Source of the DNA: Symbiodinium sp. CCMP2592
Taxonomy: Eukaryota > Sar > Dinophyceae > Suessiales > Symbiodiniaceae
Assembly (NCBI GenBank): GCA_905221615.1
Contig: CAJNDT010002024.1
Coordinates: forward strand, 797,357-861,356
Reading direction: 5' to 3'
DNA length: 64,000 bases
In this document: positions 1,345-57,910 of the stretch, one piece after another
How the letters are laid out: each line of letters opens with the position of its first letter
Numbering within the stretch: position 1 is the stretch's first letter
Program-made: the position numbers and the translations under genes
Notes under the pieces: generated by a model
The model's database searches: none
What the model saw: only the letters and a program-made list of their open reading frames with translations
What the model was told of the DNA's origin: nothing

Positions 1345-2380
1345 GCAGGGCTACGTTTTTTCAGGCCCTATACACCCTAACCCTGTAATTTGATGATCAG
1401 GTATTGGCTCAATGAGTTTTTCAACCGGATGGAAAAAAACGGGCGCTTTTTGAGCCCAAGTGGCAAAGCTGAGCTCGAGGAGGCATGCGAATCTTGGCAA
1501 AGGTTTTTTTGTTTTTAATGCTGTGCAGTGTGCACACATCAAACACGAACGTATGCTCAGGACAAATGCTGCATCAGCTATGCTGCACTTGCGACAATGG
1601 CAGCCCAAAGATCCGACCGATTGTGGCCACTGCGACCCAAGTTCCACGTGGCTTTCTGGCACTATCGATCATGTTAAGCATAGCATGGGTTGCAGCTCTA
1701 TTGCAGTATGTTGATCTGAGGCGTTTCAAGAAATTGTTTTCATGGCCATGATGGATGGCACCACGGCGGCACATATGAAAACTTATACAATGAATTCCAA
1801 CGCCTCAAAGTGCTATTTGCCAAGGTCAGAACCCGAAATATGGGCATACATTTAGAGATGAGGGGTACATGGGTGCGGCAAAAGGCAGGATGATGAAAGA
1901 ATCATGTCATCGGATCATGGCTGCATCGTTTGATCCACCCTTGCCCCCTGTGCGACAGCCATTGCTCGACGATGCCATCGAGCAACTCTGGAAATGAGCT
2001 TCTTTCGACGTGCTTATGGTGAGCGATTCGGCAGCAAGTGGAGTGTGCATGGCAATTCTGATTTCAACCCCGGTTTGCTGTTGATTCGAGGTTCCCGAAC
2101 ATGCCCTAGACCGTCGAGCAGTGGGGCAAAATGATGAGCGAGTGGATTCCTCTAACCCCACTAAACCCAAAGCCTCAAGCCTAAGACTATACACGTTTAA
2201 AGTATGATTATATATACTATTCTTATAAAAATATATATAATATATTACATATATATTTATACGATTACATCTATTTATTGCCCACAATGGTCTCAGATAA
2301 CGATTTCAATTGACCATGACTTTTCACGCTGAGGTCTCGTATGTTGATAACTTAGGAGCCTCTGGGTTTAAAAAGCCGGT
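1345..2380. other. Stretch without a recognisable gene
   Basis: No reading frame here has convincing protein character. A short CCCTAA-like run lies at 1370-1386, and an AT-rich tract with alternating TA steps occupies about 2200-2275, just upstream of the kinase gene. Upstream exons of that gene could lie here unseen. Confidence 0.4.
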
Positions 2381-4203
2381 ATGGAGAGCCATGGACTCTA
2401 TGCAGTATGGCTACTTCGGCTTGCAGGTGGCTCATCTTTTCTCTTCGTTTTGCTCGGCTTCCCCTGTGCAACTTTCAACTGGGATGTGTGTTTTCGCGGC
2501 AACTCCTTGACGAACACCGTCCTGGGCCTGACAATCCCTCTGCTCGCTCCCAGCAACAAGACAGAAGTCTTGCTTCGAATTTTTCTGTTGCTGAATTCCT
2601 TCGGCATGTTCACAGTGTCACTGCACTGGTGCTCAGACTTCGACTCATGGGCTATCGGCACGGTCATTTCGATTCTCTACCAGACTCTGAGCGGGATTGT
2701 GCTTGTTAAGTCTCACGTGCGAGAGCACGTTGCGTTTCACGCCGTCGGAACCGTTGCTTGCTACATGCTTCGGGCCGAATCTTCTAACTCACTGATGGAA
2801 GGCCGTCAATGGGCGGCAATCATGGTGTCAGTGGCGGTATTGTGCGTTTCCGTGATGTGGCTACTGGCCAGAGACCTTGCCGGAGAGGTTGCATTGAAAA
2901 CGCTGGAAGATCATCTGGGTGCTTTGCGGATTCCGCTCGATAAGCTTGAGCAACGCACATCGGCACTATCAAGCGACGCAAGCACCCGAAACTCTTCTGG
3001 CTCACGCACGCCAGGCTCGCCACTAAAAGTGAGCAAGTTTGATCTGCCTGACGGCGGTCCGCCGAATTTGGAGCTTCTACATTATGTCAGTGAAGGTTCC
3101 TTTGGCAGAGTCTACTGCTGCAATTGGGGTGGCCAGCGCGTAGCTGCCAAGGTAATGGCCTTGCAGCCAGGGCACCGAGTCGATCCGATCAGAGACTGGG
3201 CTTTTGGGAGTACCATACTTTACTACTTTTTTCTCAAAGGAACTACTTCATGAATACAAGTTTACACTTGTTTTACCTGTTATCTCCCTGGTTACTGAAA
3301 AGCTTAGGAGAGGCTACTCTTTGCCAGAAGCTCTCCCACGACAACCTCGTCCAGACCTACGAATTCTTTGAGCACTCGGCAGACACCGCGGATCCAGGCT
3401 GCAGCGTGCAGGTCTGGATACTCCAAGAATGGTGCGACAAAGGCACTCTTGGCAGTTTCTGCACCATCCCTCGTTGGGATTCGAGTGGCCTGAGATACGT
3501 CAGGTGCATTATGTCAGATGTGGCGAAGGCCTGCTGCTATTTGCACTCAATTGGCGTCATCCATGGCGATCTCACGTCGCAAAATGTTCTCCTGCAGACA
3601 CGTGCGCCGGGCCACGCAGGGGAGATAGAGTTTGTTTGCAAGCTTTGCGACTTTGGTTTGGCACGGGTCTTGGAGCAGGGTGTCACCTCACTGATGACTG
3701 CACAGCTGGGGACCGTTTCGCACATGCCACCCGAACTCCTGGACTTCGATGACGGGCGCCTGAGCATGAAAGCAGACGTCTATGCCATGGGTATCCTGCT
3801 CTACCAGGTCAGGGGCCCAGAAAAGAACGTAAGCATAAGCCTTCTAAAGGGATATCCCTACCTTATTGACCTTCATTATGAGGGGGTTTATATGTGATAT
3901 CCCTATCCTCGCGTTTGCTTATGTGCTTTTTTGGGAGCCCTGCCAGGCAGTTTTGGGAAAGCTCCCTTATGCAGGGATGCTGGCACCGCAAATCATCGCC
4001 TTTGTGGGATCGGGAGGCTGCCTTGAATTACCTCCAGAGCTACCTCATGAGGTTCACAGGATGTTTGAACTCTGCATCTTGGTAGCTTTGGATCAGTCGC
4101 CTTCAACTGTTTGGTGTGCCGCAATCCTAGTCTGACCGATGTCGTTTCCTTTAAAGAATTTGCAATCCAAAATTTAGTTTGTCCGTCGGAAGGTAGGATG
4201 TAA
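2381..4203 (+). CDS. Multi-pass membrane protein kinase (TKL-like), multi-exon
   Basis: A gene for a membrane-anchored protein kinase in at least three exons. Exon 1 (2381-3209) encodes about six hydrophobic segments, a short Ser/Thr-rich linker, then the start of the kinase lobe: glycine loop GSFGRV and VAAK lysine. A 98-nt GT-AG intron (3210-3307) restores the frame and joins to REATLCQKL, which supplies the helix-C glutamate. Exon 2 (3308-3807) carries the catalytic loop HGDLTSQN, DFG, a PPE in place of APE, and the MKADVYAMG stretch. A 139-nt GT-AG intron (3808-3946) leads to exon 3 with GKLPYAGML and LELPPELP. The last part (NPSLTDVVSFKEF, stop at 4203) is in another frame from about 4099, so there is one more small intron or a frameshift. 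The HGD catalytic loop makes it a non-RD kinase; other key residues are present, so activity is plausible. The start is uncertain: a stop sits 12 nt upstream of the ATG at 2381, and an AG/G acceptor at 2425 could mean an earlier first exon. The likely role is membrane signalling; the ligand is unknown. Confidence 0.75.
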
Positions 4204-6448: not shown

Positions 6449-6566
6449 GTAGGGTTTTAGGGTTTAGGGTTTTAGGGTTTTAGGGTTTAGGGTTTTAGGG
6501 TTTTAGGGTTTAGGGTTTAGGGTTTAGGGTTTTAGGGTTTAGGGTTTTAGGGTTTAGGGTTTTAGG
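6449..6566 (+). repeat. TTTAGGG/TTTTAGGG telomeric array, left flank of the retrotransposon
   Basis: About 118 bp of tandem telomere-type repeat in which 7-mers (TTTAGGG) and 8-mers (TTTTAGGG) mostly alternate. It stops abruptly at 6566, where unique sequence of the retrotransposon 3' end begins. The same alternating array, same strand, resumes at about 15876. Confidence 0.9.
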
Positions 6567-6664
6567 CAATTCCGGGTCGGCAGAATCCGGTACTCGTACG
6601 TGAGACTACCGCCATGACAGTTGCATGCAGCTTGCAGGAACAGAATCTAAAAAACTACATCGGC

Positions 6665-9600
6665 TCAGTACTCATCCATAACGCCACGAATAAAGGAAGC
6701 AGCAGCAGAGCGCAGCTCAGCATCCTCATCAAGTTGACAGCGTATCTTGTTTCGAAGAACATGGAGTTCGTGAGGGATTGTCGATAAAGCATCCTTGGCC
6801 GCCTGATCAGCTCTAGAGTTGTGGAAGATCATCCATAAATCCTTGGGGCCCACAGCAGAGTGGACTGATCGATGAGCCTTGACCCAAGATATGATGAAAG
6901 TATGGTTCCGTCTTTTCTCTAAAAGTTTCGCCGTCGTAGCCAATAGGTCTCTGTCCGGATGATTGATCCATTGTTTCATCTCAAAGCCATGAGTCTGGAT
7001 TTTCAGGATGTCTCGAACCACAGCAGAATTGTCACAATACACATGCAGGTTGCAACAAATGGCAAGAGCTGTATTAACTGCGAAAAGTTCCGCACGAAAA
7101 ACTGACTGCTTCACCCCAGGTAGGATGCCTTTAGCCAGAATTTGGTTTTGGGGGCCTGATTCCGCCGCACGTGTCACAGCCCAAGAACATGTCCTCAGCT
7201 CATCACTCTCATTATCCAAGGCAGAACCATCTGTAAAAATGTACTGCACCGCTGAACTGTCCCAATCAATGGCCACATCATCCATCTGCAAGTTATTGAG
7301 ACCCTGTCGGTATTCGTCAACAAGAGGCAACTTCGGGGAAAGGGCCCCAAAAAGCCGATACTTAGGAAGATTGCAAATACACTGCCAGTTCTTTCCATGA
7401 CGAAGGTGTTCAGTCGCAGGGCAATGAAAAGCACGATGTACCATAGTATCCTCTTCCCCACAGAACTCGCAGTTGGATTCAGAATTCTTCTGGACTTTGC
7501 ATTTGCGGTTGTTTGGAAAAAGACCTCCCAATCGCATCTTGTTGATGAAGCCCTCCATGAGACGATCTTTATGCTTGGGGAAAACACTCCTTGACAGTGA
7601 GAAAGAATCCAGATCACCCAAATGTTGTTTGGTTTGAAGAAGGGGTAACAACTTGTCTTCCCAGGAGTTCAAGATTCGTTCTGCAAACTGTGAGACTGTG
7701 ATATCCCAAATATTGAAGGTCCAGCCATCTGGGGTTTGGCACTTCCCATCCGCATATAAAGCCCATCCAAGTTCATGAAGTTGATTTTGCACAAGTCCCA
7801 CCGATCCTTTGGTCTTGCCTTTGAAGAACTTTTGCCCATCCACAACAAGAGCCCAAACCTTCTTGGTGTCCTCCGGGTGCTGAGCGAACATTCTCAGGAA
7901 GGCAGCAAACCTAACTTTGGCCACCACAAGAAAAGGTTCATAGCACGTGCCCGAAAACAACGGCGCCATGTAGTGAAGGTGGTACTGCTGTTTGCCCCAA
8001 ACTGTATGGTTGCTTTTTGCTCGTACATCCTTGAGAAAGTCCTTTCCAGTAGCCCAGCATTGTGCACCAAAGAAGACCATCGGGAAGATTCCTCTGGTCA
8101 ATATGGCAGTTTTCCGGCGAACATCCCATGGCATATACTTCAAGCGGTTCAGCAGCACTTTGGACTTTTCCCACCTGTCATTCCTGGTTTCAACCGAGGC
8201 CCGATTTGACGTTTGCAAATTCACTCCCAGATTCTGTAGGTTGCTTGCCAGTCCAATGTTAATACCGTTGTTCACCAAATTCCCCCGGAGCGCCCTTGCC
8301 AACTTCATCGACGAGGCAAACACATGTGACTTGGGTAGTGAAAGAATGAGGCCACATTTCCTTGCCAATGTTGCAATCAACTGAATAGCATCAAGCAGCT
8401 TTGTAGGTTGTTTGGTGAGCATCATCCAATCGTCCACATAAGAGAAAATCTGCACCTCAGTCTTCTGTTTGACATACCTTGTGAAGCAAAGGGTCATCAA
8501 GATCATCTGTACCACTGCAATGGGGCATCCTTCTGGCACACCCACCGATGAGTAGATTTCCGAGCCCCAGGACTTCCCGCAAGTAAAATGTCTTTTCAAA
8601 GACCCAAGAAAAGAAGAATAAGGCATCCAGACAGTATCCAGTCCCAACTTCTTGTTGATTTGCTCCAGTAGGGGTCTCGATAAAGTATTGTAAGCCTTGG
8701 AGAAATCCAGTGATATACCAACCAGATCAACCTGTGTCAACAAAGCTTCTTCAAGCTGGAGCTGGATGGCAGCCGTCATATCTGCTGATGATCTCCCAGG
8801 GACCGACCCATATAAGGAATTTGGGAGGATTGTTTTGATGTGCTGTAAAACTTTTCTCGTGATAATTTTTCCCCACAGCCTAAAAACCGAAGCCAGGATC
8901 GTGATAGGCCGAGTTGAAGAAATGTCACCAATTGTGTCATCTTTGCGAAGCAACGCCATTCTTGCATGCACCAAACCATCTGGCCATTTTCCAACAGCTG
9001 TAAAAAGATTCAGCATCTGAAGAAGATACGGCTTCAAAGATTCCGGAATATTCTTGAGCTCGTAGTTGCTAAAACCATCCATTCCTCTGGCTTTTTGGAC
9101 CGGAAGTTTCTTGAGCGCCCATTCCAATTCCACCATTGAAAAAGCAGTATCCATCCGGGGAAGAGAAGGTAGAGCAGCAATAGCATCCTGGATCATGACA
9201 TCATTCATCGGTTCATCTCTTTTTGTATTCCAGAACTGGTTCCAGTATGTGTGAGCTTCCTGTAAGATCACCTGGGGTATTGCCGTAGGAAGAACCTGAC
9301 AAACAACACCAGACTGGATTTGACCCTTGATCTTCTGGAGCTGAATTTTGCCTTGATGTGACTTGACCACTTTCGCTTCTGCACCATTTTGTTTCCACGT
9401 AGCACCAAGTTTGATACACTGAAGGTCATCATCACAAAGGATGCATCTCTGAGGTCCTTTTTTCTTCGTCCGGCACACTGTCACATGGAGTGGAACTGAC
9501 ACATCCAGCGAGTCCACGCGAGGATATCCAGGGGGCTTGATTGCCTTGAAGTGTTTCGAAGCTCCTTCTTTCCAGTCCTGAGCAAAGACCTGCGACACAT

Positions 9601-11050
9601 GATTATGCCTATGCTTTCTAGTACAATCACGCCACTGAATCTCACGTTCTCGCAGTTGTTGAAACATCCAGGATGCCTCAGCTACTGTAGGTGGTGAGAG
9701 GGGAAACGAAGGTGCCACCTCCTTCATCCACCACTTCTGAAAACATCCCGAGAATCCAGACGAACGCAAGATCGATCGCCACGTAGCCATCAAAGATAGC
9801 TGTCTCCCAGAGAACTCTGTCGCAGAGGGGTCCGTGCCATCCAAACATTGTCTCTGGCTGATGTAGGTCTGTAGACGGCGAATTTGTCTGATCCTCTGCC
9901 TCAAAGTCAAGGACTGCTCGTCACCAGTAGGGTTGAATTCTCCCACTCTAGCCTTCTTGATTGGCTGCTGGGGGGCCTCTTTTCGAAATCGTACTTGGCC
10001 ACGACCACAAAAGCGAGCTCCAAACTGTATGTTTTGTTCATCATGTAGAAGATATTGGAGCTGGGCTTCATAAGCCTCACAGAAAGCCTTCCAGACCCAG
10101 TCCACATCTCGTTGTTGAAGAGCATTGTCCAGGTTGGTCTTGGCTGAACAGGGCAGATAGGCCTGGCTCAGCTTTTCTCTGTCCAAGTTCAGAGACTCGA
10201 TGGGTACAGGCATCCTGTAGGTCTGGAATTGGCGCGGCTGTACCGACCAGTCAAAGGTTGCTTGTACTGCTCTGTGATCTGTCTCAGCTTGGGCAGAGAC
10301 TTGAAATCCAAGAAAAGATGGCGAAGCTGCAGAGTTGAATAAAACATAGTCGATCCGCGAGGAGTCTTTGAATGTCATCGCAGGTTCCTTGCCATCACGT
10401 TGTTGTTGTACAAGTGCAGCATCTTTCCATCCCAGTTCTTCCATTGATTGCCATACTGCCAGTTCTTGCACATTGCAGTTAAGGTCTCCCAAAATAATGG
10501 CTGGGCAGTCGAAGTCCATGGTTCTGTGGACTGCCTCCCGAAGAAGCTCTTCGTTGTGTAGGTCAGCATCTGGTAGTCCTTGGTGAAGTCCATATACTGC
10601 CACCACAAGAATATAACCATCTTGATGTACAACCAGGGCATCGACCACTCTCGCCGTATTCCAGTTGTCAGAGGTCCAAGCTCGAGTGAGTGGTCGAAGG
10701 GGAAGCGACGAAAGAATAGCAGCCCCACTCGCCTGGCCTTTTGTAACACATTGGCGATGATCTGCAAACGTCCTCTTGTCAACCGGCTTGCTGCACACCA
10801 GGTGTTTCTTTTTGGCATGGGCTTGCTTAGTCGCCTTCTGTTGCACAAAGGTGGTCGCTGCAGTCTCGGTGTAGGCAATGACCTCGGAATCGTTGCTGGC
10901 AAATCTTCCATCATCCAGAAAAGCATTCAAGGACTGTGTGTTGAGGCCTGTGATCCTCATTGGCCCAGGATTCTTTGCTTCACCAACTCGGGTCCCAAGC
11001 CAATCGTTGTGCTGCAAAATGCAGCAGGGCATTCTGTTCCACTCCATCAT
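6665..11050 (-). CDS. Retrotransposon ORF3: AP endonuclease / reverse transcriptase / RNase H polyprotein
   Basis: A 1461-residue protein that nicks target DNA and copies the element RNA. Residues 23-30 are GEAKNPGP, a 2A-like motif. The AP endonuclease domain covers about 31-270: E62, GDLNCN at 188-193, IDYV at 233-236 and the DH pair at 258-259. The reverse transcriptase lies around 640-950: LDFSKAY with D782 and the YVDD box at 871-874. A C-x2-C-x7-H-x4-C zinc-finger-like motif (C1194, C1197, H1205, C1210) follows. RNase H occupies about 1265-1425 with D1274 (TDGSA), E1321, D1340, H1393 and D1415. An extra Cys cluster (C536, C539, C545) lies between endonuclease and RT. No stop or frameshift breaks it. 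The start ATG at 11050 overlaps the stop of the upstream small ORF as ATGA, and a second in-frame Met follows immediately. Endonuclease plus RNase H points to I- or Tad-like groups rather than R1, but clade assignment needs a tree. Confidence 0.95.
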   Translation of the reverse strand: MMEWNRMPCCILQHNDWLGTRVGEAKNPGPMRITGLNTQSLNAFLDDGRFASNDSEVIAYTETAATTFVQQKATKQAHAKKKHLVCSKPVDKRTFADHRQCVTKGQASGAAILSSLPLRPLTRAWTSDNWNTARVVDALVVHQDGYILVVAVYGLHQGLPDADLHNEELLREAVHRTMDFDCPAIILGDLNCNVQELAVWQSMEELGWKDAALVQQQRDGKEPAMTFKDSSRIDYVLFNSAASPSFLGFQVSAQAETDHRAVQATFDWSVQPRQFQTYRMPVPIESLNLDREKLSQAYLPCSAKTNLDNALQQRDVDWVWKAFCEAYEAQLQYLLHDEQNIQFGARFCGRGQVRFRKEAPQQPIKKARVGEFNPTGDEQSLTLRQRIRQIRRLQTYISQRQCLDGTDPSATEFSGRQLSLMATWRSILRSSGFSGCFQKWWMKEVAPSFPLSPPTVAEASWMFQQLREREIQWRDCTRKHRHNHVSQVFAQDWKEGASKHFKAIKPPGYPRVDSLDVSVPLHVTVCRTKKKGPQRCILCDDDLQCIKLGATWKQNGAEAKVVKSHQGKIQLQKIKGQIQSGVVCQVLPTAIPQVILQEAHTYWNQFWNTKRDEPMNDVMIQDAIAALPSLPRMDTAFSMVELEWALKKLPVQKARGMDGFSNYELKNIPESLKPYLLQMLNLFTAVGKWPDGLVHARMALLRKDDTIGDISSTRPITILASVFRLWGKIITRKVLQHIKTILPNSLYGSVPGRSSADMTAAIQLQLEEALLTQVDLVGISLDFSKAYNTLSRPLLEQINKKLGLDTVWMPYSSFLGSLKRHFTCGKSWGSEIYSSVGVPEGCPIAVVQMILMTLCFTRYVKQKTEVQIFSYVDDWMMLTKQPTKLLDAIQLIATLARKCGLILSLPKSHVFASSMKLARALRGNLVNNGINIGLASNLQNLGVNLQTSNRASVETRNDRWEKSKVLLNRLKYMPWDVRRKTAILTRGIFPMVFFGAQCWATGKDFLKDVRAKSNHTVWGKQQYHLHYMAPLFSGTCYEPFLVVAKVRFAAFLRMFAQHPEDTKKVWALVVDGQKFFKGKTKGSVGLVQNQLHELGWALYADGKCQTPDGWTFNIWDITVSQFAERILNSWEDKLLPLLQTKQHLGDLDSFSLSRSVFPKHKDRLMEGFINKMRLGGLFPNNRKCKVQKNSESNCEFCGEEDTMVHRAFHCPATEHLRHGKNWQCICNLPKYRLFGALSPKLPLVDEYRQGLNNLQMDDVAIDWDSSAVQYIFTDGSALDNESDELRTCSWAVTRAAESGPQNQILAKGILPGVKQSVFRAELFAVNTALAICCNLHVYCDNSAVVRDILKIQTHGFEMKQWINHPDRDLLATTAKLLEKRRNHTFIISWVKAHRSVHSAVGPKDLWMIFHNSRADQAAKDALSTIPHELHVLRNKIRCQLDEDAELRSAAASFIRGVMDEY

Positions 11051-11256
11051 TGAATTATAGTGTGTAAATAAATTAAAGCCATAACCACTTTGTCCAGTCG
11101 TAACACCGTCATCCGCGTGGTGGTAGGCAGAAAAGAAGTCACTTGCACATCGGTCAGAGCAGTAGTTGTCGCCGTGTACCGAAAAACCGTCCAGAAGGAG
11201 TTCCAGACGAATTGGTCGGGCGCGTTGCTGTCACGCCCGTTGTTTCTTGGGCTCAT
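11047..11256 (-). CDS. Small linking ORF between retrotransposon ORF2 and ORF3
   Basis: Sixty-nine codons begin inside the end of ORF2 (ATG at 11256, 26 nt before the ORF2 stop ends) and stop in the ATGA that starts ORF3. No domain is recognised; the sequence begins MSPRNNGRDSN. It is in the +1 frame relative to ORF2. It may be a separate small protein, a frameshift extension of ORF2, or simply the path by which ribosomes reach the ORF3 start. Confidence 0.45.
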   Translation of the reverse strand: MSPRNNGRDSNAPDQFVWNSFWTVFRYTATTTALTDVQVTSFLPTTTRMTVLRLDKVVMALIYLHTIIQ

Positions 11257-14221
11257 CCTTCCCGGAGCCTTCCCTCTGTGGCGAGGGTGTTCTCTTCCGC
11301 AGGTGGCTCATCTGATCCTTGACTTCACCCATGAGCTCCTCCTTGAGGGTCATCTGTGCCATTTGGAAGTCCTTGTTGAGGTCCTGGCGGTTCGTCTGGA
11401 GGGCATTCGTGATCGCTGCCGTGTGTTGGCCAAGCTGTGCTGTGATGGCCGAGGTAATATCATTGAGTCCCTGCTGGAGCTTCTCATTGATGGCGTCCTG
11501 CTTATTGGCCTGAGCCTGCACAGTTTTCTTGAAGGACTGGAGGTCCTCCTTGAGGATCGCATGCGCCGACTGCTGCTCTGCATGGAACTGATCCATCTTC
11601 TTCTGCAGTCTGTCTTCCAAGTCCGCTGCAGCTCCCATATCGCAGTCCATCTGCATGTTCATCCTTGGCATCTGTGGTGTGTTACTGAAGGTAGCCGATG
11701 TTCCAGCAACAATCCAAGGAACCATCTTCCCAGAGCCTTTTCCTTTTCCTTTGCCTTTGGATTTTCCAGCTCCTTTGGGGCCTCTTTCAGAAATCAGCAC
11801 TGTGCCATGGTCGGCAAGGTGGACGAAGCTCGTAGGAGGCTGTTCTGCACCAACCAACCAAACCCTTGGCTGGATCTGTCGAATCGCCAGGCTGGTCCAT
11901 TTGATCTGGTTGAGAAACTTCTGGACCTCGACTTGGGAGCAGCTGAGGGGCAGGTTCTGGACCTCGTAGTACATCTTGACAGACAAATGGTAGGGGGTGT
12001 CCGCCAAAGGTTGCCATCCAGGCTGCCACTTCTGCTTCAGTCGTGAGAAGTCATCCACCTTGACACGGATCCCACAACCAGTTTTACTTCTGACCAAGCC
12101 AAAAGCCTTAGGCTCAGCATTCGCCATGATAGCCAACTCCGAGATTGGCCTGTCAGAGAACCAGACGACCTTGAAGGCTGGGTCCACTCCATTGTCCGCA
12201 TGCCTGGGTGCAAAGTAGACTCCCGGGCACATTGCTCGCAACACAACATCTCGGAACTCCCTCTTGATCCTGAGGAGGATGTAGCATGTGTCGGCATTCT
12301 TGAAATCCTGGGTGGGCTTGTTGTTGAGGAAGAACTTTCGGCCCCAGGAGGCAAAGGTAGCCTCCTCCAAGGCTGGCACCTTCTTCTTGATGTACTTCAA
12401 AGGGCCTTCTGTAACCTCATCCCATTGGGCAGTTTCCTTCTTCACGATCTCGGCTGCCATGATAATGCCATCCAGCTCATCCACTTTGATCTTTGTACTT
12501 TCACCAACCAAGGAAATCTGCTTGCAACCCAAATTGATCATCTGGGCCTTGATGAGGATCCTCCTGTCTTCGGCATTCCGGCAGGGGATTTCCACTTCCT
12601 TGACCGGGAATTTTCCAGAGGTCTTGATGTTGTTGCCGATGACCAGTGCCGCCAGCTCCTCTGAGGACATATGTTCTTGATTTTGTAGAAGAAGTTCTGC
12701 CTCACGTTCCGTGACCAGTGCCACTCCAGTGGCACCATGTGTAATCTTGGACAAGGCACTCGGGTGGGCCCCAGACTCGGTGAGGAAGAAGTTCGCCTCT
12801 AAACTCCACTGAGCCCTTTCCTGGATCGCTGCACTCCATGGATCTTCATGTTGGAGGGGGTCGTCATCTGGTTGGAGCACCTTGGCTTTGGGTCTGTGGC
12901 GGCTTTCAGATTCTTTAACCAATCTGGTACTGCATGACGACTTCAACTTCGACCACGGGTCGAAGGATGCATAGGCATCGCGGATGCCCTTCTCCCCGAC
13001 TTGGCTCCGGATTTCCTCAATCCTCTCATCAAGGGCTTCCTCTGGGACACCCTTCTGCTTAAGGAGGCCTCTGAGCTTGGAAACCACACCACCAGCAGTT
13101 CCTCCTCGTTGTCGACCTCTGGCAAAGATCTTGCATCCTGTGGGCAATCGGGCCGCTGTGGTAGTTGCACCGATGGGTCTTCCAGTGAGGAGAAAGAAGA
13201 GTGTTCCAGCAGGGATCCCCCACTCGTCTTCCGTGATCTGGTCCAAGGTTCTGGGATCATCGCGGCAGCAGGGCAGGATCTGTCCCTGGAAGTCGATATA
13301 GATAGCTTCAGCTGCTGGAGGGTGTCGAATCGGTCCATAATTGATGGTTGCCGGGATAGCCTCCGAGGTCAGGCCTGGCATCTTGTTGGTCTCGTCCAGT
13401 GGCCTTGCATCAGCGAAGCTTTCGGAAAAGGGGAGACCACGTAGAGGTGCTTCCACTTCATAGGGCTGTGTCGGGTCGATCGCTGTATCCCGTGGGCCCT
13501 CCACATTGTTGTCCACGGGGGTCGCAGGGGGAGGATCATCTCGACCATCAACGGAGCCATCGCTCGTCCCATCATCACTGCTTTCTCCTCCTTCATCAGC
13601 ATCTTCTCCAGCATCTTGTGAATCTGGGGGGCTTGGCATGGCATCAAACTTCTTGAAGATGTCGAGCTCCTTGCTGTTCTCAATCTCCGAGTGACCGTCC
13701 CATCGAATCCATATGTAGTCCCCAGACTCAATGACCGCCGGCCACGTGTCTATGGGCTTTCCATTGATGTGGATGATGTCAGGTCGTTCACTGTGTTGCA
13801 TATTGTAGGTCTGTCGTAGGGCCTCCCAATGCAATATTGAGGGCATCCACCATGCTTCCGGAACAGCCGCATCCACCAAGACCAAAGCAACATCATATCT
13901 CGAAGGGATTTCTCCAGCAATGATCCAGTTGTCGTTGATGTAGGGGATCTTTGCCAGGGCCATCTCCTCAGGGGGGATCGCCAAGAACTCGGCAACCTGC
14001 TTGTGAACCGTCATCGTCTTCTCGTTGGTGTCGATGGCAATGCCCGAGCTTCCTCCAGTAGTCTGGAAAAGTCTGTACTCTTCCCGTCCATCATCCTCTG
14101 GGTCCGATTGGAGGTCCTCGTAGACGACCCGGGAGGGCAATTGGCTGGCCCTGACTCCTCCGGAAAAGCAGTGACTCCAGCTGGATCTTTTTTCCAATGA
14201 GCCGCTGTCGCAAGGTTCCAT
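11231..14221 (-). CDS. Retrotransposon ORF2: Gag-like nucleic-acid-binding protein
   Basis: A 996-residue protein, presumed to coat the element RNA. The N-terminal ~200 residues look folded (contains IPYINDNWIIAGE and WDGHSEIENS) and end in an acidic Ser/Asp/Glu stretch near 200-240. The middle holds alternating charged and hydrophobic segments; near residue 760-810 a stretch with MYYEVQNLPLS and RVWLVGAEQPP resembles an RRM-like fold, which is a weak call. Residues about 815-832 are a Gly/Lys linker (GAGKSKGKGKGKGSGK), typical of RNA-binding tails. Residues about 865-975 are predicted by eye to be a long coiled coil rich in Gln, Lys and Glu, followed by a basic tail ending PKKQRA. The order fits a LINE ORF1/Gag role. 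It overlaps the methyltransferase-like ORF by 131 nt in the +1 frame, so its own ATG at 14221 may be reached by reinitiation or frameshifting. Confidence 0.85.
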   Translation of the reverse strand: MEPCDSGSLEKRSSWSHCFSGGVRASQLPSRVVYEDLQSDPEDDGREEYRLFQTTGGSSGIAIDTNEKTMTVHKQVAEFLAIPPEEMALAKIPYINDNWIIAGEIPSRYDVALVLVDAAVPEAWWMPSILHWEALRQTYNMQHSERPDIIHINGKPIDTWPAVIESGDYIWIRWDGHSEIENSKELDIFKKFDAMPSPPDSQDAGEDADEGGESSDDGTSDGSVDGRDDPPPATPVDNNVEGPRDTAIDPTQPYEVEAPLRGLPFSESFADARPLDETNKMPGLTSEAIPATINYGPIRHPPAAEAIYIDFQGQILPCCRDDPRTLDQITEDEWGIPAGTLFFLLTGRPIGATTTAARLPTGCKIFARGRQRGGTAGGVVSKLRGLLKQKGVPEEALDERIEEIRSQVGEKGIRDAYASFDPWSKLKSSCSTRLVKESESRHRPKAKVLQPDDDPLQHEDPWSAAIQERAQWSLEANFFLTESGAHPSALSKITHGATGVALVTEREAELLLQNQEHMSSEELAALVIGNNIKTSGKFPVKEVEIPCRNAEDRRILIKAQMINLGCKQISLVGESTKIKVDELDGIIMAAEIVKKETAQWDEVTEGPLKYIKKKVPALEEATFASWGRKFFLNNKPTQDFKNADTCYILLRIKREFRDVVLRAMCPGVYFAPRHADNGVDPAFKVVWFSDRPISELAIMANAEPKAFGLVRSKTGCGIRVKVDDFSRLKQKWQPGWQPLADTPYHLSVKMYYEVQNLPLSCSQVEVQKFLNQIKWTSLAIRQIQPRVWLVGAEQPPTSFVHLADHGTVLISERGPKGAGKSKGKGKGKGSGKMVPWIVAGTSATFSNTPQMPRMNMQMDCDMGAAADLEDRLQKKMDQFHAEQQSAHAILKEDLQSFKKTVQAQANKQDAINEKLQQGLNDITSAITAQLGQHTAAITNALQTNRQDLNKDFQMAQMTLKEELMGEVKDQMSHLRKRTPSPQREGSGKDEPKKQRA

Positions 14222-15824
14222 TGGGGCCTTGCTCTGCTTGGTCGTTCTTCATCGTGAGAATAGCCCAACCATCGATGACAAACTCCTCCAGCAGGTCATA
14301 GGCCAACCATGTATTCTGCAAGTCGTGGATGCCTTCCTGAAAGAATCTGTTCATCTCAGTCTCTTCCAGAGGGTCCTCTTGGCGGTGGCCCAGAACTGAA
14401 AGGAGGACTCCCATTGCTTGTACAGGTAGAAGGCATGCTCCAAGAAGAAGATAGGCGTCCTCCTCAAAGGCAGGGAGGATGGTCTTGCCACTGAAGCCAA
14501 AACATCGCAAGGCTTCCCATTTCGAAATGGATCGGACCCTCGCCCTTCCAGACGGTAGGATGGGGTAGTAGAGGCCCTGCTTCTTGAGGACCATCCAGGG
14601 TAGCTGTAGGACACGACCATAGTTCACAGGGAGAAGAGGAAGAGGCTTGGCCATGTCAACTGTCCTCAGCGCCAGTGGAGCGCCAACCAGTCCTTTCTGC
14701 CAAGCTGGCAGCAGTTCGCGACTCGTGATCTTCGTGAAGTCCGTGTGCTTCACCACCAGGTTCTCCTCCATGTCTTCTGGCATGTTCTGCCAAATGCCGG
14801 GGAAACAGGCCAGAGGAGGCAGGCTCTCCGGCTTGATCATCTTGAAGGCCTTTCCGCTGGAGGGGTGGTCTGCTGTATTCCAGAACACCATGCAATAACG
14901 AGTTCTTTCTGCAGGTGTGTGCTGGCTTGGATCCAAGAAGCCCTTCCAAACACACTTGTAGCCACACCACTTGAACACATCCATGATCGTTTTCATATCT
15001 TCATGATGGGCAACACGGGGTAGTGTCTGGAGAATGAAGGTCCTCCTCTGAATCAATCGCAGCACCATGAAAAGTTGCCACCATCCCATGGATTTCTTGC
15101 CTTCGCGAAGTCCTTCACTGCCACTCAAGAAGAGGTCGATCGGCGGCGAGGCCACCACAACCTCCACATTCTTTCCATGCACCCCTTGGAGCCATCTGAG
15201 GTCTAGCAGGTCGCCCCAAAAAACATCAAAGGTAGCCTGATCTCCTGTACCAGAGAAGAGGGTCGCATCCTGGTTGTTGAGCAACACGTTGGAAATCGCC
15301 AGCCCATCATGGTCAATTCTCATGGCCACTTCCATGGGGAGGGCTGCTGCAGCAGCTGAGAAGCCGCTGAGGCCTCCACAAAAGCAGTCCATCATCGAAA
15401 CCACGGCGTCCGTCTGGGTCGGCAAGCGTATCGTAGCTCGCTGCTCCTGGATCTCCGGGAACCGTAGGCACGTCTTTCCCTTTGGATCCTTCACCACCTT
15501 TGCTCCAACAAGCATATAGACTTCATTCTGTCTCACACGTCCCCGAAAAGACGTCGCATCGAAGTAGACAACCTCGCCGGTCGCTCTTGGGAAGCGGTCT
15601 TCGCCTCCATCTCCGATGACATTGGAGAGCTTCAGGTGGATCACATTGGCCATTCCGTGGTGCATGGAGTCCATGCTTGCAATTTGCACTGCAACATTGA
15701 ACTCCTGGTCGCGGGGCATCTCATTGATCCCATAGCTTGCAATCCACCCTCTGGCGCAGATGAAGTCCAGCTTTTCCGGTATGGTACAGGCCGAGTAGGC
15801 CATCTTTTCCATGAAGGATTCCAT
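14091..15824 (-). CDS. Retrotransposon ORF1: C5-cytosine-methyltransferase-like protein, catalytic Cys absent
   Basis: A 577-residue protein with the motif order of DNA C5-methyltransferases. Motif I is DCFCGGLSGFSAA (146-158, SAM binding). Motif IV is VVVASPPIDLFLSG (223-235), where the invariant Pro-Cys pair has become Pro-Ile (I229; codon ATC at 15140-15138). The motif VI Glu-Asn-Val position reads QTL (about 266-268). Motif VIII keeps the RxR (R307, R309) but not the Gln. Motif IX is RVRSISKWEALRCFGF (429-444) and motif X GACLLPVQAMGV (462-473). SAM-binding fold and C-terminal motifs are thus kept while the two main catalytic residues are lost, so classical methylation activity is unlikely. 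The N-terminal 140 residues have no recognised domain. The frame is open upstream of the chosen ATG, so the start could be some codons earlier, close to the telomeric array. Retrotransposon-borne methyltransferases are established in dinoflagellates; a separate, catalytically altered ORF in this setting is inferred from the sequence alone. Confidence 0.8.
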   Translation of the reverse strand: MESFMEKMAYSACTIPEKLDFICARGWIASYGINEMPRDQEFNVAVQIASMDSMHHGMANVIHLKLSNVIGDGGEDRFPRATGEVVYFDATSFRGRVRQNEVYMLVGAKVVKDPKGKTCLRFPEIQEQRATIRLPTQTDAVVSMMDCFCGGLSGFSAAAAALPMEVAMRIDHDGLAISNVLLNNQDATLFSGTGDQATFDVFWGDLLDLRWLQGVHGKNVEVVVASPPIDLFLSGSEGLREGKKSMGWWQLFMVLRLIQRRTFILQTLPRVAHHEDMKTIMDVFKWCGYKCVWKGFLDPSQHTPAERTRYCMVFWNTADHPSSGKAFKMIKPESLPPLACFPGIWQNMPEDMEENLVVKHTDFTKITSRELLPAWQKGLVGAPLALRTVDMAKPLPLLPVNYGRVLQLPWMVLKKQGLYYPILPSGRARVRSISKWEALRCFGFSGKTILPAFEEDAYLLLGACLLPVQAMGVLLSVLGHRQEDPLEETEMNRFFQEGIHDLQNTWLAYDLLEEFVIDGWAILTMKNDQAEQGPNGTLRQRLIGKKIQLESLLFRRSQGQPIALPGRLRGPPIGPRG

Positions 15825-15875
15825 GCTCGAGCGTCGGTAGGAACAGCCCTGCCGCTGGAAGGCCCTCGAGCCCAG

Positions 15876-16010
15876 GGCTTTTAGGGTTTTAGGGTTTAGG
15901 GTTTTAGGGTTTAGGGTTTTAGGGTTTAGGGTTTTAGGGTTTAGGGTTTTAGGGTTTAGGGTTTTAGGGTTTAGGGTTTTAGGGTTTAGGGTTTAGGGTT
16001 TAGGGTGGTT
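15876..16010 (+). repeat. TTTAGGG/TTTTAGGG telomeric array, right flank of the retrotransposon
   Basis: About 135 bp of strictly alternating 8-mer and 7-mer telomere repeat, ending in three plain 7-mers. Same strand and same variant register as the left array at 6449-6566, as expected if one array was split by the insertion. Confidence 0.9.
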
Positions 16011-22949: not shown

Positions 22950-25015
22950 TCTAGGTTTGTTTGGGCTTCGCGGGGTGCTTCACAGATGGATTTCCTTGGA
23001 GAGCTCAGAACGGAAGAGCGAGATAATGTTTGATAGCCAAACTCTTGCGAGCACACACACACACACTCTCTCTCTCTCTCTACCTCTCTCTCTCTCTCCA
23101 CAAACATGTTTACATATATATATATATATATATGTATGCATACATTTGTATGTTAGTTTGTGTTAATTGGTTGCCTGCTCAGTTTGTTTGTCAAACAAAA
23201 CTTCTAGGTATGACAAAATGTGAACTTCGATAGAAGTTGAAGTGCCAACGTGCGAGTCATCAGTTGAAAGGTCCAACACTAGCAGTGATGATCTTTATGA
23301 TGAGGTTCGTTGTTCGCGCCCTTCAGCAGGTCACTAGGGTTGTCTTCGTTCAATGCCAGCATGAGTAGTATTAGGTGGGTCTTTACAGCACTATAGCGAT
23401 CCTGTTATGTCCGTTATAGAAGTACCTATAGTCACGTTTTGGTTCTAGATGGAGACTACGGCTCTTTCCTGAAACTCCCATCATCTGTTGGCTTTTGTTG
23501 GCAGAGAACCCTTTGAACTTTCAGCCCAAGTTTGTCTACCATTTCCGGGGGGAAGGCTCAGTAGCAGTCGACTCGAACTGACAAATTGATACTGAGCCTA
23601 CTGGGGGCTATTGGGGTGCGTGCTCGAACTTGGTTAGTTCGTGGCGGCGGCATGAGATTGCAGAAAAGTAGCATCGGTATGCCTTGAGGATCATCTTCGC
23701 ATGGAGGCTTCTGCGTAACTTCTCAAATCGCTTTGGTGGGGTTGAGGGCTCCTTAACCACAAATCTGCAGAGAGTTGGGGCTCTGAAACTTCTAACCCTA
23801 CCCTAAACCCTAGACTCTGATCCCACTACAGGCCGTGTGCCCGAGCACTTCAGCTGCCCAAGCCGCAGCCTTGGACAGGGAGTCGTTCTTTCCCGATTCG
23901 CTTCAAACCCCAGAGTGAACCGAAGCCCCACAGGATGTAGGGTTTGGGGTTTAGGGTTGAGGGGGTGGCAGTAGAAATAATGTGCCGGAGTCATTATATA
24001 CCTCTGACTGTTGTTTCTTAGGGTTCTTTATTCTGCTTACGCACAAGAAAAACAACCCAAAACCCTATTCTCCTTCTTGAGGCCTCCACATGCAAATTAT
24101 TCGGTGGACTCTTGGCTTGGTTTCCGGTTTCGCACTTTGTGGTTCTCGGGTGCTTGTGAGTCGACGCTCGGAACTCTGTTACGATCCACTTGTAATTATT
24201 GGGGGCCCCTGTATTACGCGCACCAACATGTGCCAGTGGTTGCACAGGTTCTCGGAGGCATATCTTCCAAGTTGATATTAACAAGTAACAGTCTGCGATC
24301 CTTCTCTCAAGACGTAAGGGTGCGGGGTTCCCGCGAATTTTCCAAAAGCTGGTTCGACACTCCAAAAGCAGGATCTGACCCGCGCGCTCCCCAGAGTCGG
24401 GCTGTGTGAGTGCAGATCTAGCCATTAGGGCTCTGCGGTTAGGATAACTATAGGTGTGCCTTAATGAACCTTAATGATTAGCATGCTATAGTAACTTTAC
24501 GGTCTATAATAAGGAAGCACTATGACAATTATTCCGACCACTATACGACGATGCCAAGGGAGCACCAGCGACATTTGAGGAATTCGAAATGCAAGTCTGT
24601 ATTCCAAGACTAGGTTCTTGTTTAGCAACTTACTTACCGGTACCACGTTTGCGTAAACAACAGGTCGGAGCTTTATTGTAACCTACTTATAAGTTCCTTA
24701 AAAGAACCCAGAAGATTCGTAGCCTCAGCTCTGAAGATAATGCTGCTCGCAACAATTAGAGTCAGGGGTTAGGGCTCAGCTGCTTTTTCGTTCCACACAG
24801 TGGGATGGTTAAGGGTTTACGGTTTGGCTCATGCTACTGCAGCGCATGCTGCGGCAAGCTCACGCAGTAGATCTTAATTTTCCCAACTTCGACACTTGGA
24901 TACATCTATCGTTGAAACAGTGCAGACAGCGCGACAGTGCAAGATCGATTTTCTTCAACTCGCCCCATAGTGTGTTGAGGTTTGCTCGGACCAATAGCAG
25001 ACAGACACAACTGTC
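22950..25015. other. Unassigned stretch upstream of the dehydrogenase gene
   Basis: Holds a CA/CT/TA microsatellite at 23055-23142, short telomere-like motifs at about 23800-23815 and 23936-23960, and otherwise sequence without recognisable coding content. The promoter and 5' UTR of the downstream gene presumably lie in the last few hundred bases; no defined element is visible. Confidence 0.35.
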
Positions 25016-25837
25016 ATGTTGCAATCAACCCTTCGCATAGCAGCCGCTCGATCTTTTGCCAGCTCTGTGTACCGCCAAAAGTCTGCACTGGTCACCGGAG
25101 GGGTTCAGGGGCTGGGAGAAGCCATTGCTCGTCGACTCGCTGATGATGGGTACAAGGTTGTCATCGCAGACGTGCAGGATGGACAGCCCCTCGCTGAGGA
25201 GATTAAAGGCAAGTTCGTTAAAGCCGATGTAACTGATCCCAAGCAAGTAGAGGCTGCTGTGAAGCATGTCGTTGAAGCCTATGGAAGTCTCGACGCCCTC
25301 GTGAACAATGCTGGAGTTGTTGGATCCCAAGTATTGCTTGCAGATTATGACATCGAGGAATGGAGACGTGTCATCGACATCAATCTGAACGGCGTCTTCT
25401 ATGGTCTTAAGTACGGACTGAAGCAAATGGTCCAGCAAGAGACTGGCGGCAGCATTGTCAACATGTCGTCTATTGCTGGATTCCGCGGACTTATCAACTT
25501 GGGCCCCTACACGGCTGCTAAGTTTGCAATACGCGGCATAACACGTGCAGCCGCCGTCGAGTACGGCAGCAACAAGATTCGCGTCAATGCTCTCGCGCCC
25601 ACTGGCTGTGAAACACCCATGGTGAAGACCTTTATCGAGCAGAGCTCTGATCCGGCTCTCACCCACAGCACCTTGACTGGTTACCATGCGATTCCTGCGA
25701 TTCCGCAAGCAAGGGACGTGGCTGATGCATGCTCCTTTCTCTTGAGTGACCAGGCTCGGTACATCACTGGCCACACACTGCCCGTGGACGCTGGTGCTCT
25801 GAGTCGAGTTGCTAATGCCCCGGAGCGATTCACCTAG
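25016..25837 (+). CDS. Short-chain dehydrogenase/reductase, probably mitochondrial
   Basis: A complete, intronless 273-codon gene for an NAD(P)-dependent oxidoreductase of the classical SDR family. The cofactor loop is TGGVQGLGEA (T-G-x3-G-x-G, about residues 27-36), NNAG follows at about 96-99, and the catalytic set is Ser in MSSIAG, Tyr and Lys in YTAAK. The C-terminal PVDAGAL is also usual for the family, and the length is typical. The first ~25 residues (MLQSTLRIAAARSFASSVYR) are basic, Ser/Ala-rich and acid-free, which looks like a mitochondrial presequence; the Rossmann fold starts right after. The ATG at 25016 is the first that includes both. An Asp follows the second beta strand (IADVQD), which usually favours NAD over NADP. 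The substrate cannot be told from sequence. It stands alone among repeats; the lack of introns could reflect retroposition or transfer, neither proven. Confidence 0.93.
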   Translation: MLQSTLRIAAARSFASSVYRQKSALVTGGVQGLGEAIARRLADDGYKVVIADVQDGQPLAEEIKGKFVKADVTDPKQVEAAVKHVVEAYGSLDALVNNAGVVGSQVLLADYDIEEWRRVIDINLNGVFYGLKYGLKQMVQQETGGSIVNMSSIAGFRGLINLGPYTAAKFAIRGITRAAAVEYGSNKIRVNALAPTGCETPMVKTFIEQSSDPALTHSTLTGYHAIPAIPQARDVADACSFLLSDQARYITGHTLPVDAGALSRVANAPERFT

Positions 25838-28474: not shown

Positions 28475-29335
28475 GGTCTGGGTTTTGGGCTTTTATTTCC
28501 CAGGAGAGGGAAGCCATGCTATTGATAGGTCTTAGGTATTGTTTTGGGATAATCTTGAATTTCCCAGACTGCTTAACATAGAGCCCCTCTTTACAAATAG
28601 TTTTGCGGACTGTTGAAATCGTCGCCTAGTGTTGTTAGGGCTCTTAGGGGTTTTGTAAAGGTGCAGTCAGGTGATTCAGAGAGCATGGTGCCTGGCGGCT
28701 TGTTGAGTGCAGCGTGCCTGCCAACAGTTCCTCCTGAATCGTAGACTGCAGTGCATACCGACTGACGGGATATAGACCGTTACACGGTTTAGGGTTTAGG
28801 GTTTAGGGGCCGTTGAGGCAACAAACCCAGAAACGCAGACAAAAACGCACGGCACCCTGAGCCCAAACACCCTAGAACACTAAACCCGAAACCCCGAAAC
28901 CCTGCGGACTACAGGGGTATATGAACTGTTACAAAAATGTCCTACACACCTGCAAAAGCCTTTTCAAGTCACGTAGGGTCCTGCAAAAGGGGGATGTCCA
29001 ACCCAAGCGACATCAAGGTGCACATCGTGCGGGGCGGACTCGGTCTGACCCACAGCGCCCCGTGGCCTCACGAAAGCCTTCCTGCAGGGGCCCATTATAT
29101 TACTTTACGCACAGAGTATATAAAATTTGGGTACCCTTGGGGTTCGTTTAGGCTGTAGAGTGCAAGGATCAAGTTTTAGGACCTGTGCTTTTGGGTTTAG
29201 AGTCTTGGATTTGGGTTAAGTAAGGTTTATAGTCCAAGATTTGGCGTGTTTGGTTTCGGGAACTGGGTCTCGGGGTCCAGGATCTACATTCTAAGTGCAG
29301 GGTTTCAGAGTTCAGGGTTTGGGGCGTGGGGTTAT
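28475..29335. other. Unassigned stretch before the 43-bp satellite
   Basis: Short telomere-like motif at 28790-28806, C-type motifs at 28860-28900, and open frames at 28937-29095 with mixed composition but no recognisable domain. Turns G-rich from 29160. Confidence 0.35.
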
Positions 29336-30730
29336 GGTTCGGGTTGTCTTGCTGACTATTGGGTGTAGGCTTAAGGCTGGTTCGGGCTGTCTTGCTCACT
29401 ATTGGGTGTAGGCTTAAGGCTGGTTCGGGCTGTCTTGCTCACTATTGGGTGTAGGCTTAAGGCTGGTTCGGGCTGTCTTGCTCACTATTGGGTGTAGGCT
29501 TAAGGCTGGTTCGGGCTGTCTTGCTCACTATTGGGTGTAGGCTTAAGGCTGGTTCGGGCTGTCTTGCTCACTATTGGGTGTAGGCTTAAGGCTGGTTCGG
29601 GCTGTCTTGCTCACTATTGGGTGTAGGCTTAAGGCTGGTTCGGGCTGTCTTGCTCACTATTGGGTGTAGGCTTAAGGCTGGTTCGGGCTGTCTTGCTCAC
29701 TATTGGGTGTAGGCTTAAGGCTGGTTCGGGCTGTCTTGCTCACTATTGGGTGTAGGCTTAAGGCTGGTTCGGGCTGTCTTGCTCACTATTGGGTGTAGGC
29801 TTAAGGCTGGTTCGGGCTGTCTTGCTCACTATTGGGTGTAGGCTTAAGGCTGGTTCGGGCTGTCTTGCTCACTATTGGGTGTAGGCTTAAGGCTGGTTCG
29901 GGCTGTCTTGCTCACTATTGGGTGTAGGCTTAAGGCTGGTTCGGGCTGTCTTGCTCACTATTGGGTGTAGGCTTAAGGCTGGTTCGGGCTGTCTTGTTCG
30001 GGCTGGTTCGGGCTGCTGCACTATTGGGGTAGGCTTAAGGCTGGTTCGGGCTGTCTTGCTCACTATTGGGTGTAGGCTTAAGGCTGGTTCGGGCTGTCTT
30101 GCTCACTATTGGGTGTAGGCTTAAGGCTGGTTCGGGCTGTCTTGCTCACTATTGGGTGTAGGCTTAAGGCTGGTTCGGGCTGTCTTGCTCACTATTGGGT
30201 GTAGGCTTAAGGCTGGTTCGGGCTGTCTTGCTCACTATTGGGTGTAGGCTTAAGGCTGGTTCGGGCTGTCTTGCTCACTATTGGGTGTAGGCTTAAGGCT
30301 GGTTCGGGCTGTCTTGCTCACTATTGGGTGTAGGCTTAAGGCTGGTTCGGGCTGTCTTGCTCACTATTGGGTGTAGGCTTAAGGCTGGTTCGGGCTGTCT
30401 TGCTCACTATTGGGTGTAGGCTTAAGGCTGGTTCGGGCTGTCTTGCTCACTATTGGGTGTAGGCTTAAGGCTGGTTCGGGCTGTCTTGCTCACTATTGGG
30501 TGTAGGCTTAAGGCTGGTTCGGGCTGTCTTGCTCACTATTGGGTGTAGGCTTAAGGCTGGTTCGGGCTGTCTTGCTCACTATTGGGTGTAGGCTTAAGGC
30601 TGGTTCGGGCTGTCTTGCTCACTATTGGGTGTAGGCTTAAGGCTGGTTCGGGCTGTCTTGCTCACTATTGGGTGTAGGCTTAAGGCTGGTTCGGGCTGTC
30701 TTGCTCACTATTGGGTGTAGGCTTAAGGCT
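29336..30730 (+). repeat. 43-bp tandem satellite, 32 copies
   Basis: The unit starts GGTTCGGGCTGTCTTGCTCA and ends GTGTAGGCTTAAGGCT. Fifteen units run from 29336 to 29980, then one 62-bp aberrant unit (29981-30042), then sixteen units to 30730. The first unit has two substitutions; nearly all others are identical, so expansion was recent or is kept homogeneous. Confidence 0.97.
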
Positions 30731-57103: not shown

Positions 57104-57910
57104 AGGTTCAGAGGGTTTAGGCCTTAGAGGTTAGGGTTCCGCGTTGAGGGATCCTGGGAGGTCCTTCGACAGCCCGATATCATGTTTTTGGCTGCTGCCG
57201 GAAGCCATTCATCCGTTGAAGGTAGAGGGTCTGAATACTTGGTAAGATAAACACCCTCATAGTCTCAATACAATTAGAGCACGGGATACCTCAAATGCCA
57301 AAACTATTCGTTAGTAGAGGCTTATCTATTATCTTAGTGGCTGTAAAACAAACTTTTCAACTTTTGCCGGGAATGGGTTGTATGATGCCTAGGATAGCAA
57401 TAAGAGAGGGTTGCTGGGGGGGTTAGAGAGGTAAAGAAGGGGATGGGAAACTAGTAGAGGTGATTCTCAAGGTCTTGTTTTGGGTTTTTAAATGGGGGTG
57501 TATGGGTTTGAAATAGGCCGCATAGCTGTAGTGCTCGAACGTAGTCTGACGACGTCACAACAAGCCTTGAACTTTACCCCTCCTCCCTAAACCCAAAATG
57601 TATATCCTTACACCTTCAGACACCTAAACCCTGGAAAGCTGAAGCCCATCACCCTCAACCATGGCACCACCTTAAACCCTATCGTCCCAGATCCCTACTA
57701 ACTACAGACTCCCATCACCAGTGCCATAGGCCTTCAAGCTTCGTAGTCCACCCACCCTAAAGCCTAAAACCGTAACCTCGACCCTAATAATTTGAACCCA
57801 ATGACACTAGACCCGAGAGGCTAACAGCTGAATGCCACCACACTAATCCCCAACACCCTAAAACCCTAAACCCTAAAACCCTAAGCCCTAAACCCAAACC
57901 CTTAAATCCT
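57104..57910. other. Stretch without a recognisable gene
   Basis: Last region with telomere-like motif: degenerate C-type phrases from 57580 and a cleaner array at 57858-57905. No coding content recognised before 57911. Confidence 0.4.

Follow-up and report, generated by a model that had tools for sequence, protein, structure and literature searches.

A stretch of 64,000 nucleotides from Symbiodinium sp. CCMP2592 (contig CAJNDT010002024.1, positions 797,357 to 861,356; hereafter the window, whose numbering is used throughout) carries a long interspersed nuclear element (LINE) bordered on both sides by TTTAGGG repeats, and the comparison with other copies leaves us in little doubt that this endonuclease-carrying LINE is site-specific, with a short telomere-type sequence as its target. 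The LINE body spans 6567 to 15879 with its sense on the minus strand, the 3' end lying at 6567 and the 5' end at 15879 (GAGCCCAGGGCT on the plus strand), and both boundaries are common to its relatives. It is bordered on the plus strand by a left array of alternating 7- and 8-mers (TTTAGGG/TTTTAGGG; 6450 to 6566), which ends in TTTTAGG at the element 3' end, and by a right array (15880 to 16006) in which the alternation is more regular; the two are best seen as the halves of a split target. The alternating 15-mer TTTTAGGGTTTAGGG occurred 13 times on the plus strand of the window, 12 of them inside the two arrays; outside them there was one at 46736 and, on the minus strand, one at 57864. When the flanks were joined at an inferred 14-bp target site duplication TTTAGGGTTTTAGG (left copy 6553 to 6566, right copy 15880 to 15893, both on the plus strand), the unit lengths ran ...7,8,7,8,7,8... 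unbroken over the join. The length of this duplication is ambiguous in a periodic array, 29 or 44 bp preserving the phase as well, and 14 bp is the value that fits the copies outside arrays. Since the 7/8 phase continues over the rejoined flanks, we read the two flanks as a single alternating array divided by the LINE. An earlier note on this DNA had proposed precisely this, with both junctions in arrays of the same strand and a 3' junction devoid of poly(A), and all three points are confirmed here: on the sense strand the element ends as GGAATTG|CCTAAAACCC, passing straight into the array. It is the other copies, not the window alone, that exclude chance as the cause of these junctions.

The earlier note had suggested that target specificity could be verified by looking in other copies for insertion at the same register of TTTAGGG. 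To collect 3' ends we searched the 1.098-Gb genome with a pattern situated inside the 3' untranslated region (UTR; 6567 to 6664, minus strand) and not at the junction. The core of this UTR matched 13 genome places, the window among them, and the junction was readable in 12 (L032 was left out of the count, having no recognisable junction). YTAGG stood directly before the element in 11 of these 12 junctions, and at least three YTAGG lay within the preceding 60 bp in eight; the exceptions were L026 (GTAGGG with no array), L027 and L030 (YTAGG with no array) and L031 (two YTAGG). Five more distant 3' ends, fetched at the distance predicted from the first open reading frame (ORF1) in copies 38-42% identical to the window in ORF1, read CTAGG (C504), TTTGG (C2291) and TTAGG (C5226, C1247 and C453), that is, YTAGG in four out of five. 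Taking all readable 3' junctions together, YTAGG was present in 15/17 and GG in 17/17. With the window set aside, YTAGG remained in 14/16, so that most other copies do not lie in non-telomeric sequence, an outcome that the earlier note had considered. Matches to the array only (L006-L020) did not contain CAATTCCGG, the start of the 3' end in the window subfamily.

TTTAGGG is so common in this genome (175 occurrences in 40 kb of sampled pieces, although very unevenly spread, with four pieces lacking any) that random insertion might be thought to meet it without any targeting. We find this scarcely credible, because in 20 random 2-kb pieces (L046-L065; 77,600 positions, both strands) YTAGG preceded 0.5% of the positions, against 15 of 17 junctions, and at least three YTAGG were found within 60 bp at 2.2%, against 8 of 12. 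Nor do we give any appreciable weight to an assembly artefact by which unrelated contigs collapsed at telomere-like repeats: perfect periodic arrays are indeed places of assembly failure, but YTAGG recurs in 14 of the 16 other 3' junctions in differing surroundings, and ten copies bear unambiguous duplications.

Both flanks could be read in 16 copies (L044 and L045 were not paired), and a repeated target stretch was found in 14 of them, 13 by exact match and one (L043) by eye, the latter being 14 bp long with one mismatch where the script gave an exact match of 11 bp at another offset. The length was ambiguous in the window, L035 and L036, whose flanks are periodic. In the other ten it was 16 bp (L038, L037 and C504), 14 bp (L040, L041 and C1247), 15 bp (C5226 and C453), 18 bp (C2291) and 7 bp (L039), thus 14-18 bp in nine out of ten, although one or two of the leftmost bases could match by chance. 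Typically the duplication ended in TTTAGG and G followed, this being the next base in 13/14. As each end of the insertion carries YTAGG, we consider this motif target DNA. The context over the putative nick (six bases to the left and eight to the right) matched the 14-mer TTTAGGGTTTAGGG, picked after the sites had been seen, with at least 10 identical bases in 12/14 copies, L036 (8) and L038 (6) falling below; the same threshold was reached at 0.7% of 79,440 background positions. These data point to a G-rich strand nicked at TTTAGG^G. Telomere-repeat-targeted integration, as put forward in the earlier note, is thereby supported, in that a fixed register of TTTAGGG, together with target site duplications, recurs in other copies.

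A further explanation raised there is that the arrays are part of the element, either as terminal repeats or as a templated telomere-type tail of the LINE RNA. The rare 7/8 alternation, which borders the window copy on either side and is nearly absent from the rest of the window, would fit it. However, the flanking arrays vary in length and wording and are short or absent in L026/L038, L027 and L030; the duplications hold bases that are non-telomeric and peculiar to the locus, for instance AACAAGGTGAGTAGGG and CGTTTTGAGTTTAGG; and L038, a full-length copy with no array whatsoever, adjoins an undisturbed AACAAGGTGAGTAGGGATATTG. Since the arrays differ between copies and L038 has none, we take them to be target and not element, and regard the opposite as highly improbable. 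One or two bases at the 3' tip (GG) could nevertheless be templated by the element RNA.

The 5' ends of ORF1 relatives were visible in 13 of 14 slices (L069 being the one with none) and, as judged by eye, TTTAGGG-like DNA lay within about 20 bp of the 5' end in ten of the 13, was weak in L073 and absent from L066 and L079. Between the ten array-bearing relatives and the window, ORF1 identity is 38-42%, and since copies so distant also meet TTTAGGG-like DNA, the insertion rule is old in this lineage. As to the location of the targets, the earlier note had called the array telomeric, a term that has to be abandoned: the window copy sits in a 903-kb contig whose nearer end is 99 kb away, the copy having 6.4 kb of non-telomeric DNA on its left and 48 kb on its right, and TTTAGGG is dispersed in the genome. 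In the parts of the window not occupied by the element, plain or degenerate TTTAGGG is scattered on both strands, chiefly from 4 to 58 kb, a dispersal that is unusual for interstitial DNA. The insertion sites read were contig-internal, with non-telomeric DNA on both sides, and the targets are, as far as the assembly shows, interstitial telomere-like repeats.

In HeT-A and TART of Drosophila, LINE cDNA is attached terminally and without duplication. A similar origin could be imagined for the window family, the cDNA being joined to a chromosome end, telomerase adding TTTAGGG and the whole becoming interstitial later. The polarity fits, inasmuch as the cDNA would be on the 3' end of the G-rich strand with TTTAGGG next on the same strand. 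Against this, the duplications with non-telomeric bases and the non-telomeric DNA on both sides indicate insertion into continuous DNA, and the sites read are contig-internal, though the copy closest to a contig end (C504) lies within 4 kb of it. Terminal addition is therefore very unlikely.

Several observations weigh against targeted insertion or restrict it. The junction and family analysis covers one genome, the 3' UTR pattern reaches the closest subfamily only, and the background pieces come from contigs in which hits had been found before. In a TTTAGGG-rich genome, some of the bias could stem from a preference for intergenic DNA; this would not be the whole story, since the register is fixed. 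Moreover, L034 and L042 showed no target site duplication, L038 was inserted in GTAGGG outside any array and is followed by A rather than G, L027 and L030 have YTAGG with no array, C2291 ends in TTTGG, and L066 and L079 have no repeat at the 5' end. The target specificity of this family is thus not absolute.

We believe that target-primed insertion into the telomere-type repeat is the most plausible explanation. The ORF2 endonuclease would nick the G-rich strand at TTTAGG^GTTTAGGG, and reverse transcription would be primed by the freed TTTAGG-3'OH right where the element RNA ends (GGAATTG in the window subfamily); because priming would start at that very end, the copy would receive no poly(A). 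On the C-rich strand, some 14-15 bp away, a second cut would allow the insertion to be completed with a duplication of about two telomeric units, and early dissociation would leave 5'-truncated copies. The fixed register and polarity, the duplications mostly ending in TTTAGG, the truncated copies and a target outside the element can be read from the sequences, while we infer that it is the ORF2 endonuclease that sets the specificity, as well as the order of the steps.

Two further features were observed at 3' ends of the family. In L034 (C80), a 3' piece of about 345 bp after position 618 shared 92% identity with the window element over a length that takes in array DNA; it runs into unrelated coding-like sequence and lacks a duplication, suggesting a chimaeric or rearranged copy. 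L044 and L045 (and similarly L080) showed a palindromic short element around GGAATATTCCTTAATTAAGGGGTATTGGAGTCTCTGGG in or beside LINE 3' ends, perhaps resembling a miniature inverted-repeat transposable element.

Regarding coding capacity, the earlier note had described three ORFs, all intact. ORF2 (6665 to 11050, minus strand; 1,461 amino acids) is indeed intact and comprises an APE-type endonuclease, a reverse transcriptase with YVDD at residue 871, a CCHC-like knuckle and the RNase H that had already been noticed. In Pfam it matched RVT_1 (E 8.6e-20) and RNase_H (5.7e-11), and weakly Exo_endo_phos (E 3.5e-4; 20.8 bits, under the cut-off of 24.5); the catalytic words GDLNC and TDH were found, and in a sequence ranking of PDB entries it matched L1 ORF2p (3.8e-15) and the R2 protein (4e-6). 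Its N terminus (10961 to 10987) contains a stretch ending in VGEAKNPGP, with NPGP at residues 27-30, which resembles the end of 2A translation-skipping peptides; L035 and L038 are alike, and relatives have IGEASNPGP.

The other two frames, of 577 (14091 to 15824) and 996 amino acids (11231 to 14221; no Pfam match at E 0.001), both on the minus strand, overlap in different frames in the window and correspond to the N-terminal part and the C-terminal two thirds, respectively, of ORF1 in the relatives. In three near-full-length relatives (L035, L036 and L038; amino acid identity to the window mostly 55-61%, in pieces) both stretches are in one frame at that place. A search with the first of the two frames disclosed single open ORF1 frames of 1,548 (C4900), 1,547 (C1247), 1,540 (C5226), 1,566 (C5094), 1,534 (C453) and 1,490 (C504) amino acids, those of the remaining relatives being shorter or interrupted. 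Because six relatives hold one ORF1 frame of 1,490-1,566 amino acids, the sequence argues for a two-ORF LINE in which ORF1 is broken in the window copy by a frameshift at about 14.1-14.2 kb; hence the three ORFs are in fact two, and only ORF2 is intact. We also considered a programmed frameshift between the 577- and 996-residue frames. The three near-full-length relatives are in frame there and have frame breaks elsewhere in the element, so that decay is likelier.

The earlier note had further recognised a methyltransferase-like ORF, and this homology received support. ORF1 residues 137-477 (14394 to 15416, minus strand) are homologous to C5 cytosine methyltransferases, and a profile-profile comparison of 13 family members with four relatives in the same genome bearing a canonical DNA methyltransferase (DNMT) gave a probability of 99.8. 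In single-sequence scans of five family members against PF00145, L084 passed (1e-6), L087 (1.6e-4) and L038 (0.0087) were under the cut-off, L083 and L091 did not match, and the window ORF1 protein had no Pfam match. A structure model of ORF1 from the single sequence had a mean predicted local distance difference test score (pLDDT) of 32, and one built with 13 sequences, with a predicted template modelling score (pTM) of 0.45, resolves no more than an OB fold and a portion of the methyltransferase core. Foldseek with the methyltransferase-like model returned DNMT1 and M.HhaI, the core being of low confidence and the fit good over about 100 residues only. The modelled OB fold (residues 26-141; 15402 to 15749, minus strand) matched Pot1, TEBP alpha and Teb1 and equally RPA, SSB, HIN-200 and lysyl-tRNA synthetase; as the latter four score alike, its classification as POT1-like was rejected.

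The catalytic cysteine of the methyltransferase has been lost in the window copy, where SPPI stands in motif IV in place of SPPC (Ile codon at 15138-15140). The residue at this position in the 13 family sequences was I, V, F, F, C, S, C, S, S, G, G, G and C, so the cysteine is absent in ten and kept in three; motif IV has PC in 4/4 canonical-DNMT relatives, and likewise in L080-L082. The ratio of nonsynonymous to synonymous substitutions (dN/dS), calculated pairwise over the N-terminal 390-570 codons with the OB fold included (5/9 pairs were saturated), was 0.04, 0.07 and 0.06 in three pairs without the cysteine, the third being near saturation, and 0.27 in a pair with it. With an OB fold and a methyltransferase-like domain that mostly lacks its catalytic cysteine, ORF1 is probably not an enzyme but would serve the particle by binding RNA and DNA.

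Elsewhere in the window there are protein-kinase-like coding stretches to the left of the element (2372-3897), recognised by eye in at least two frames, an indication of introns; an uninterrupted open frame resembling a short-chain dehydrogenase/reductase, also by eye (24998-25837); and a 43-bp tandem repeat (29335-30730) of 32 copies with 95% matches. IMG/VR scans with ORF2 and ORF1, and an Rfam scan of the 64-kb window at gathering scores, gave no matches.

To our knowledge, telomere-repeat-specific LINEs with an APE-type endonuclease are found mainly in insects. A protist lineage with another nick register and no poly(A) would represent an independent case of an endonuclease reading the telomere repeat, and its precise junction would be of practical interest for site-specific DNA insertion. 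Whether interstitial TTTAGGG tracts in dinoflagellate chromosomes are a refuge for mobile DNA becomes testable now, and the family would also exemplify a captured DNA methyltransferase under continued selection after the loss of its catalytic residue.

The closest known system is SymbioLINE-Dnmt of Symbiodinium (de Mendoza et al. 2018, PMC5890265), for which the parts of the paper covered here describe a DNMT-domain ORF1 upstream of an ORF2 with Exo_endo_phos, RVT_1 and RNase_H, target site duplications, conserved UTRs and no poly(A). The window family shares the DNMT-like ORF1 upstream of the reverse transcriptase ORF, the ORF2 domain set, the duplications (14/16) and the lack of poly(A). In contrast, key DNMT residues are stated there to be conserved, and the window family is without the catalytic cysteine in 10/13 members and only 21-27% identical to the canonical family. 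Given this difference in the catalytic residue, we file it as a sister-like lineage of SymbioLINE-Dnmt, not as a member. The element tested by those authors produced no DNA methylation in yeast, and RNA methylation was proposed instead; in the same parts, the main text has "telomer" once, in a general remark, and no target specificity is mentioned. The telomere repeat of dinoflagellates is TTTAGGG according to the covered parts of PMC11453091, PMC11508785 and PMC7789003. A dinoflagellate host is in keeping with this repeat, with the DNMT-bearing LINEs and with the genome size; no word resembling a spliced leader occurred in the loci analysed. A literature search by title and abstract, with supplements and most subscription papers outside its scope, returned no telomere-targeted dinoflagellate LINEs, and the DNMT-bearing LINEs gain an insertion rule not found in the literature searched.

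In three canonical-DNMT relatives with a readable 5' UTR start, L080 (at about 528), L082 (at about 540) and L102, TTTAGGG-like DNA was observed before the 5' end on the sense strand, that is, on the side opposite to that of the window family; the L080 run is degenerate, and some 13 bp separate the L102 one from the 5' end. L081, a 5'-truncated canonical-DNMT copy, had no TTTAGGG-like run before its break. A SART-like opposite polarity of these relatives is possible, as a lead drawn from few copies in a TTTAGGG-rich genome. In a larger reading, telomere-repeat targeting would be a property of the entire clade of DNMT-bearing LINEs in this host, which would fall into two lineages with polarities opposed like those of TRAS and SART, with G-rich priming in that of the window and C-rich priming in the canonical one, and the window DNMT would have turned into a non-catalytic nucleic-acid-binding coat protein beside the OB fold, perhaps for finding TTTAGGG. 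We think this reading rather doubtful in its entirety. If it were true, repeated insertion with two-unit duplications would have helped to spread TTTAGGG tracts along the chromosomes.

Among elements associated with telomere repeats elsewhere, HeT-A and TART share with the window family the joining of LINE cDNA to telomere-proximal DNA, and the latter differs by internal insertion with duplication. TRAS and SART, to which the earlier note had likened the element, belong to the R1 clade. The parts of PMC7265360 covered here report that SART1 of Bombyx mori is a telomere-repeat-specific LINE that needs at least three repeats, and that SART inserts in the orientation opposite to that of TRAS with its poly(A) joined to the AGG of the repeat; the specificity for the telomere repeat is common to SART1 and the window family, while the polarity and the poly(A) set them apart. 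According to the same parts, the TRAS1 endonuclease of B. mori nicks TT^AGG on the TTAGG strand, the G-rich strand being cut first. The likeness holds best for TRAS1, which has in common with the window family a fixed register in a telomere-type repeat and the polarity on the G-rich strand, whereas the window family would differ in a nick at TTTAGG^G instead of TT^AGG, in the lack of poly(A), in its interstitial targets and in its DNMT-like ORF1.

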